The notes under the pieces are model-generated. The model searched no databases and was not told the DNA's origin. It saw only the letters and a program-made list of their open reading frames with translations. Below, piece after piece: positions 34,601 through 35,202 of a stretch of 36,824 nt of DNA. The stretch lies in the NCBI GenBank assembly GCA_905235565.1, contig CAJOLR010000015.1, forward strand, positions 1 through 36,824, in the 5' to 3' direction. Position 1 is the stretch's first letter; every line of letters starts with the position of its first letter. The position numbers and the translations under genes are program-made. Origin of the DNA: an uncultured Bacteroidaceae bacterium (GTDB lineage Bacteria; Bacteroidota; Bacteroidia; Bacteroidales; Bacteroidaceae).

Positions 34601-35019
34601 CTCTCACCGTGAATGGTCACTAAAGGGATATTCATGGTCTCCTCTTTAAGAACCACATTGAAATTGTAATCCTTACCCATAGAGAGCACCACATTATCAT
34701 AAGCCACATCCTGATAACCCAGGAACGACACCGTCACCAGATATTTGCCTGGCTTCAGGCCCGACAGGGAAAAGATGCCGTACTTATTGGCAACCGCGCC
34801 GTAGAAAGCACCCGTCTCATTGTTGGTAACCACCACTGCTGCGGCCTGGAGAGGCTCACCCTCAGAGTCTTTCACTGTACCGCTGATGGATGCGGTTGTG
34901 TTCTGTGCCGATGCCCCCACACTGGCAAACAACAACACAAACAGGCACGCAAACCTTAAGAGTCTGAATGACAAACTGCCGGCCATAGCCGAAAAACTGA
35001 ACTCGGATGTCTTGTTCAT
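31657..35019 (-). CDS. Oar-like TonB-dependent receptor under an FMN riboswitch
   Basis: Starting at MNKTSEFSF (35019) gives about 1120 residues with a signal peptide ending GASAQ. A longer frame opens at 35097, but its first codons lie inside the 3' end of the riboswitch aptamer; 35082 is a third option. After the signal come a carboxypeptidase-regulatory-like domain ([20 protein letters not shown] to LKEE), a plug domain ([62 protein letters not shown]) and a beta-barrel ending [10 protein letters not shown]. The plug wording resembles Oar-type receptors. TonB-dependent receptors move scarce ligands across the outer membrane; the FMN riboswitch suggests a flavin or related compound. No SusD partner follows. 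Confidence 0.92.
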   Translation of the reverse strand: [1120 protein letters not shown]

Positions 35020-35041
35020 GCCCTTGGCACAAACAAGTTTT

Positions 35042-35202
35042 GCAGGCGCGATAACGCCTGACAGGACTGTTTTAATACTCATAAATTCTTCTTCCATCCA
35101 GACTATACTGTCGGTACCGTAATCGCAACGGTTCGGCCTTTCGGCTCGCGGACTCTACCGCCGGTCGGGGAATCACACCCCACCCTGAAGTTTTACGCCT
35201 GC
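35042..35202 (-). promoter_or_regulatory. Possible expression platform of the FMN riboswitch
   Basis: Downstream of the aptamer CAGGCG (35055-35060) and CGCCTG (35043-35048) can form a GC-rich hairpin (minus strand). The same CGCCTGC segment (35042-35048) can instead pair with GCAGGCG (35196-35202) just upstream of the aptamer. These pairings exclude each other. No T-run follows, so control of translation of the ATG at 35019 is more likely than termination. This is a fold proposal only. Confidence 0.35.
35086..35190 (-). ncRNA. FMN riboswitch (RFN element)
   Basis: The minus strand carries the conserved RFN core: AGGGTGGGGTGTGATTCCCC, then GACCGGCGGTAGAGTCCGCG, GAGCC...GAACC, and the 3' segment GCCGACAG-like ACCGACAGTATAGTCTGG ending ATGGAAGAAGA. 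These match the FMN aptamer in order and spacing, with short peripheral helices (total about 105 nt). It senses flavin mononucleotide and normally turns down riboflavin synthesis or uptake genes when FMN is plentiful. It lies directly upstream of the TonB-dependent receptor. A -7-like GAAATTTG with a TTG 18 nt upstream (about 35202-35230, minus strand) may be its promoter. Confidence 0.93.

Follow-up and report, generated by a model that had tools for sequence, protein, structure and literature searches.

The stretch of DNA analysed here, hereafter the window, comprises 36,824 nucleotides of contig CAJOLR010000015.1 from an uncultured Bacteroidaceae bacterium. On its minus strand, an FMN riboswitch aptamer (RFN element; 35082-35196) stands immediately before the gene of an Oar-like TonB-dependent receptor, whose open reading frame (31657 to 35097 or 35082) was judged real from an ORF and domain scan of the window. 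The aspS gene lies upstream of the riboswitch-receptor locus, and the receptor is followed on its 3' side by a convergent EamA transporter gene (30746-31660) and then by an M3 peptidase gene. An earlier note on this DNA had stated that no riboflavin-synthesis gene comes after the receptor, and the two genes that do come next agree with this. Of the 67 listed window ORFs of at least 100 aa, 29 were scanned as proteins, and these included neither a rib gene nor a PF01663 protein. The window does carry flavoenzyme genes, one for dihydroorotate dehydrogenase and one for a subunit that has an FAD-binding domain. The EamA protein was considered as an inner-membrane flavin carrier and gained no support; it is also found apart from the receptor, between NIF3 and NAPRT, and its only NCBIfam match is a weak one to EbrB. 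No inner-membrane flavin transporter was identified among the neighbouring genes. Nicotinamidase-like and nicotinate phosphoribosyltransferase genes lie near the locus (26713-28555, minus strand), and vitamin B3 salvage genes adjoin the vitamin B2 locus in many of the genus loci read too. An IS110-family transposase gene (627-1622, plus strand) is located close to the contig end. Fourteen loci from named assemblies, with receptor identities of 84-95%, belong to MAGs labelled Bacteroidales, Bacteroidaceae or Prevotellaceae, several of which come from rumen or reticulum samples (RUG, RGIG and UBA series).

By cmscan, the window aptamer matches RF00050 over the full length of the model (positions 1-138) with 99.1 bits (E 5.4e-22) against a gathering score of 66.2 bits, and it is the sole RF00050 match in the source genome (2.2 Mb, ~91% complete). 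This confirms the FMN aptamer that had been proposed on the minus strand before the receptor; the span then given to it, 35019-35190, was slightly off. The aptamer consists of 28 pairs in seven helices, and across the 21 Oar-linked copies (20 distinct), in which the core is near-invariant, 93.2% of cells are paired. Pairing is 96.7-100% in all helices other than P1 (78%), the outer pairs of which are often broken in the Rfam register. The covariation score within the aptamer was reached by 18 of 500 shuffles, a modest result because most pairs never vary. Identity to the window in 19 Oar-linked genomes was 82-97% for the aptamer, 43-80% for the 100 bases upstream and 56-90% for the first 1.3 kb of coding DNA; judged by these identities, the switch is retained while the receptor drifts. 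Matches of an aptamer-core regular expression inside Dcp, and elsewhere in a few loci, were taken as false because cmsearch finds a single RF00050 in each genome. The bases TTTG (35202-35205, minus strand), directly upstream of the aptamer, are a possible Bacteroidota -7 promoter element, and TTTGC is found in the 30 nt before 23 of 25 aptamers, the exceptions being those of genomes G165 and G167. The lowest-energy fold included a long-range pairing of GCAGGC, just upstream of the aptamer, with an arm of the hairpin H1 described below. This pairing was rejected, as its upstream part is not conserved in all relatives, and the GCAGGC segment may lie outside the transcript.

The A of the receptor start codon (AUG; 35080-35082, minus strand) is the last base of the aptamer, where the 3' strand of P1 ends. 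This geometry is kept in all 25 aptamers examined (20 before Oar-like receptors and five before an alternative receptor, P2, described below), with the A lying at -2 to +1 relative to the aptamer end. The gap of 70-80 nt between aptamer and receptor that the earlier note had reported does not exist; the codon at 35019 was probably the start used in that reading. A start at 35019 was rejected, since the 20 riboswitch-linked Oar leaders read differ there: 11, among them that of the window, have ATG, six have GTG and three have neither. What all 25 linked leaders have in common is a start at the end of the aptamer, 35082 in the window. Because the A of the AUG lies at the aptamer end, P1 stabilised by FMN would cover the initiation site directly. 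In ligand-free folding of 18 of the 25 leaders, the pair probability of the inner P1 ranged from 0 to 0.98; P1 formation without ligand thus varies widely, and folding does not settle the switching model.

The 21-codon leader before the ATG at 35019 (35020-35082, minus strand) resembles the signal peptide of P2. For 17 of 20 leaders the likeness to P2 signal peptides was matched by at most 4 of 1000 shuffles, the 17 not being independent tests because the leaders are related to each other. By blastp, leader and P2 signal peptide share 50% over 24 residues (E 0.92). When the leader was tested by codon position, the excess at third positions was only mild (214, 182 and 257). RNA constraint may explain part of the likeness.

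The first ~24 codons of Oar-type leaders fold as two tandem hairpins at fixed offsets. H1 (35041-35063, minus strand; 7 bp plus two outer pairs) is paired in 98.5% of cells with double changes in 3 of 9 pairs, and H2 (35011-35037, minus strand; 12 bp, loop AAG) in 95% of cells with double changes in 9 of 12 pairs. Over 15 distinct leaders the two hairpins together are paired in 96.5% of cells, with double changes in 12 of 21 pairs, and their covariation score was reached by 0 of 500 shuffles. Sliding the partners by 1 to 3 columns left 31-48% paired, in a control that favours the proposed structure because this was taken from the fold of one aligned sequence. RNAalifold predicts the same structure. 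The leader of G167 is without the two hairpins and that of G161 forms them in part. A covariance model of H1 and H2, designated R1 and built from 13 Oar-type leaders, matched three of the five P2 leaders in the right place (G178, E 1.4e-4; G169, E 0.005; G024, E 0.008), with no match in the P2 leaders of G119 and G165 or in G167. R1 found nothing in the riboswitch-free genus loci, and 42 loci from the order, from plasmids and from other sources were likewise without a match at E 1. Where it matched the reverse strand of riboswitch-linked leaders (E 0.05 and up), it picked up the palindromes in the other direction. When only the five P2 leaders were used, the hairpin covariation was not significant (82 to 93 of 500 shuffles reached the measures), in a test whose H2 register was probably off by one. 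Our guess is that the hairpins are probably part of the expression platform, or else shield the start site against the coding sequence downstream.

Read from the AUG at 35082, the receptor has 1141 aa (31657-35082, minus strand) and matches PF25183 (148.1 bits), PF13620, PF13715 and PF00593 (28.6 bits against a cut-off of 27). These CarboxypepD_reg and outer-membrane beta-barrel domains uphold the identification of an Oar-like TonB-dependent receptor behind the aptamer, the label Oar being that of the earlier note. The PF07715 plug domain gave no match at E 0.001 in the window receptor and is present in both P2 proteins scanned. An N-terminal CarboxypepD_reg layout is common to Oar, SusC/RagA-type receptors and the window receptor. 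The match to OMP_RagA_SusC (TIGR04056, NCBIfam), however, is partial (residues 70-192) and its 40.2 bits are far under the cut-off of 368.25, so that the receptor was not filed as SusC. An AlphaFold model of the receptor (mean pLDDT 69.1, pTM 0.65) gave YddB, FusA and PirA as its best PDB structural matches, and the Foldseek alignments to whole receptors span ~1000 columns. A distant structural match was PqqU (YncD), the TonB receptor for the redox cofactor PQQ (9c4o, rank 20, 11% identity). No PDB chain related to the window receptor was found by phmmer at E 0.01, and PDB sequence searches with the proteins P0001 and P0002 returned nothing at E 0.01.

Across the genus, RF00050 occurs once each in 26 of the 37 genomes. 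Behind the switch lies the Oar-like receptor in 21 of these (in G174 across a contig break, in the remaining 20 by direct reading) and P2 in the other five (G024, G119, G165, G169 and G178). P2 has 759 aa in G024 and 752 aa in G119, with PF07715 in both, and shows no significant blastp similarity to Oar (best E 0.059). At E 1e-30, P2 was found in five of the 37 genomes, Oar in 31, both in none, and neither in G173 (Fisher p 1.4e-5 for exclusion, not corrected for relatedness). The P2 gene of G178 (locus L188, 7710-9946) spans two reading frames and is either an assembly error or a decayed gene. Where the contig permits, the shared order is aspS, riboswitch, receptor and then often the convergent EamA gene. 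RF00050 precedes the receptor orthologue in 21 of the 31 genomes that have the receptor at E 1e-30, in line with the pairing put forward in the earlier note. Three of the ten Oar genomes with no riboswitch match are cut by contig ends (G151, G157 and G166), and a rescan of the seven uncut Oar loci found no RF00050. In G070, G156, G160, G163 and G164 the Oar gene stands directly after aspS and has an ordinary short signal peptide, while G050 and G088 have distant Oar homologues (44-46%) away from aspS. FMN control is dispensable, as the five genomes with a switchless Oar gene behind aspS show.

A neighbour-gene tree of 29 genomes, with much missing data (G177 has only 189 residues), puts the P2 genomes in separate spots: G024 with G177 (support 94), G178 with G176 (95), G165 with G167 (95), and G119 alone. 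Between G024 and the window, DNA similarity ends ~19 nt into the coding sequence and resumes at most 20 nt past the stop codons, and in two other sister pairs it ends 6 and 9 nt into the coding sequence. As the same switch is found with P2 in sister genomes, the two receptors appear to be interchangeable.

RibH and RibB, the two riboflavin-synthesis proteins searched for, were each found in 0 of the 37 genus genomes and in 14 of 14 controls. The FAD synthetase domain of RibF was present in 36 of the 37, and in 10 of 14 controls. No more than 8 of the 37 reach 90% completeness with contamination of 5% or less; even so, assembly gaps are unlikely to have removed both genes from every genome, and the genus genomes look riboflavin-auxotrophic from their gene content. 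RibH and RibB are also missing from G050 and G088, which have distant Oar homologues only, and from G173, which has neither receptor. Within the family, RF00050 was found in 12 of 151 genomes. Ten of them, spanning three genera, have the switch before a TonB receptor and gave no RibH match; in G054 and G106 it is followed by a ribBA-like ORF (read from sequence) and a RibH ORF, and both genomes have RibH. RibH was found in 126 of the 151 family genomes overall, and a receptor-linked switch is associated with RibH absence (Fisher p 2.6e-9, not corrected for relatedness).

Of 295 genomes sampled from the order, 71 have a P2-like receptor (E 1e-60), and RF00050 precedes 22 of the 30 top-scoring P2-like loci, the eight misses including G462 and G426, which have little contig upstream. 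A RibH search of the 25 order genomes with the best P2-like matches gave no match in any, and a match in 14 of 14 controls, a count that describes these 25 genomes only. Riboswitch, P2 and Oar stand in a row on the same strand, with one riboswitch, in G280, G407, G333, G198, G444 and a Lentimicrobiaceae MAG (L158); in G426 the P2-Oar pair is present and the contig starts too early to judge the riboswitch. The row in L158 (1-9222) consists of the riboswitch (7-129), a P2-like gene (206-2809), an Oar-like gene (2965-6225) and an ORF that by eye is P-type-ATPase-like. A second P2-like receptor follows the first in G378, G379, G253 and the upstream-cut G462. Seven of 31 loci have a full-length PF01663 (type I phosphodiesterase/nucleotide pyrophosphatase) gene downstream of the P2-like receptor, confirmed in 7 of 7 scanned: L196 9963-11228 (+), L199 3209-4429 (-), L201 5717-6937 (-), L204 5292-6494 (-), L205 3494-4726 (-), L207 9508-10698 (+) and L221 8474-9682 (-). 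The genomes concerned are G280, G378, G379, G333, G253, G426 and G392, of which five have the riboswitch, G392 is without it and G426 cannot be judged; G279 has a partial PF01663 match. The PF01663 family includes enzymes that split dinucleotides such as FAD, and the pyrophosphatase could possibly cleave FAD before uptake. In G303, a nucleoside H+ symporter homologue (PF03825, TIGR00889; L194 6368-7672, +) directly behind a riboswitch-linked P2 is a candidate inner-membrane flavin carrier.

A tree of 37 chosen Oar sequences has three separate places of interest: that of the Oars of the genus (support 95), that of six Oars from operons (80), and that of G333, which groups with B. ovatus (94). 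Oar-like receptors therefore seem to have joined FMN riboswitches more than once. The window Oar is not closest to the Oars of the riboswitch-P2-Oar operons; its nearest outgroups are G054, P. distasonis and L153, none of them known as riboswitch-linked. A Parabacteroides distasonis plasmid record (L224, 1-7267) has two divergent TonB receptors beside an annotated ectonucleotide pyrophosphatase, and both receptors fall among the Oars on the tree. A SAM-II riboswitch (L157 2763-2821, minus strand) lies near an Oar-like receptor on the opposite strand. In the rest of the phylum RF00050 matched 29 of 395 genomes, the window's genome included, and the next ORF in 26 scripted loci reads by eye as RibB(A)- or RibD-like.

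RF00050 also stands on rib operons and on genes of inner-membrane riboflavin transporters, and with the same aptamer family the ligand logic is presumably the same here. Unlike in the rib operons, the next gene at this locus encodes an outer-membrane TonB receptor, whose AUG starts on the aptamer end. RibU, PnuX, ImpX, RibN, RfnT, RibZ and RibXY are inner-membrane proteins. They are the riboflavin transporters named in the excerpts of PMC6593275, with no TonB receptor among them. Vitamin riboswitches before TonB receptors are described for cobalamin and thiamine in the portions available of PMC5317091 and PMC2211319; there, the cobalamin riboswitch with BtuB and the TPP riboswitch with a thiamine receptor (BT2390 type) likewise place a vitamin switch before the TonB receptor for that vitamin. 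Those systems differ from the present one in vitamin and in aptamer, and the likeness is one of arrangement. The pairing of an FMN riboswitch with a TonB receptor was found nowhere in the literature searched, and is absent from the partial texts of PMC10409787, PMC5317091, PMC12405394, PMC6593275, PMC6041382, PMC13209645, PMC2211319, PMC7142613, PMC5816637, PMC11475020, PMC545781 and PMC8123684; an earlier mention in Vitreschak 2002 or RegPrecise is possible. A text find in the part available of PMC4418817 gave no mention of TonB, outer membrane or Bacteroidetes, and the excerpts of PMC7142613 have a 'flavin transport' category for some sphingomonad receptors, without a riboswitch. The literature searched holds no description of how riboflavin or FAD passes the outer membrane in Gram-negative flavin auxotrophs.

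A switch on the start of a receptor gene, in apparent non-makers of vitamin B2, points to a receptor for vitamin B2 uptake. We consider it probable that this FMN riboswitch controls translation of an Oar-like TonB receptor that imports flavin in riboflavin-auxotrophic rumen Bacteroidaceae. As an importer the receptor is well supported by comparison, through what was seen in the analysis: aptamer, start geometry, covarying hairpins, missing synthesis genes and different receptors at one locus. FMN binding, repression, transport and the substrate are what we infer from sequence. When FMN is scarce, P1 would be weak and the AUG region open; FMN, once bound, would close P1 over bases ending in the AUG, and initiation would stop. 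The receptor would carry riboflavin, FMN or FAD across the outer membrane.

The likeness of the Oar leader to the P2 signal peptide would also arise if P2 were the true flavin receptor and Oar, importing some other thing, had come under the switch by deletion or recombination, leaving the switch as a relic. It is P2, not Oar, that is most widely tied to RF00050 in the order; Oar has no switch in five genomes; and in the three sister pairs DNA similarity ends within ~20 nt of the coding start. We nevertheless think such a relic unlikely, given that receptor identity falls to ~53-60% while the core of the aptamer scarcely varies, that P2 was not found in any Oar genome while all 37 genomes look auxotrophic, and that other lineages have Oar-like receptors behind FMN riboswitches at two further places on the tree. 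TonB receptors of the Oar type serve many substrates, and Oar might instead import a nutrient that tracks FMN status, such as a nucleotide, peptide or metal complex, with FMN acting as signal only; the P. distasonis pair of Oar-type receptors beside an ectonucleotide pyrophosphatase would fit nucleotide uptake as well. Yet the ligand that the switch senses is one for which the genus lacks synthesis genes, the other gene found at this switch (P2) also encodes an outer-membrane receptor, and B12 and TPP riboswitches on TonB receptors are read in the excerpts of PMC5317091 as marks of uptake of the sensed vitamin, which together make import of another nutrient quite improbable to us.

H1 and H2 are strong palindromes within a coding region, and could be a dispersed repeat that landed in the leader by chance and stands outside the switch. 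R1 was run on the window and on 400 kb sampled from the 2.2 Mb genome, and did give two weak matches elsewhere (E 0.13 and 0.22). However, neither the genus and family loci (597,578 bases) nor the 400 kb sample contained a copy at E <0.1 away from the riboswitch-linked leaders, and the hairpins keep a fixed offset behind FMN riboswitches in two different receptor genes, so that we regard a chance repeat as very unlikely.

Beyond flavin import by the Oar-like receptor, we suggest tentatively, and at somewhat less than even confidence, that the aptamer, the AUG at its end and the two hairpins form a portable cassette. P2 or Oar-like flavin receptors would have been swapped repeatedly behind it at one locus, perhaps under phage or bacteriocin selection, with vitamin supply and its control kept. 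Elsewhere in Bacteroidales the same switch would stand at the head of a more complete operon for flavin scavenging, which has two receptors and at some loci also a pyrophosphatase potentially able to cleave FAD. Intragenic hairpins together with repeated receptor exchange would make this an unusual case of a regulatory RNA that persists while the protein under its control is swapped for another. If true, these readings would provide two families of candidate receptors and reveal both a scavenging operon in Bacteroidales and a vitamin B2 dependency of a rumen genus.
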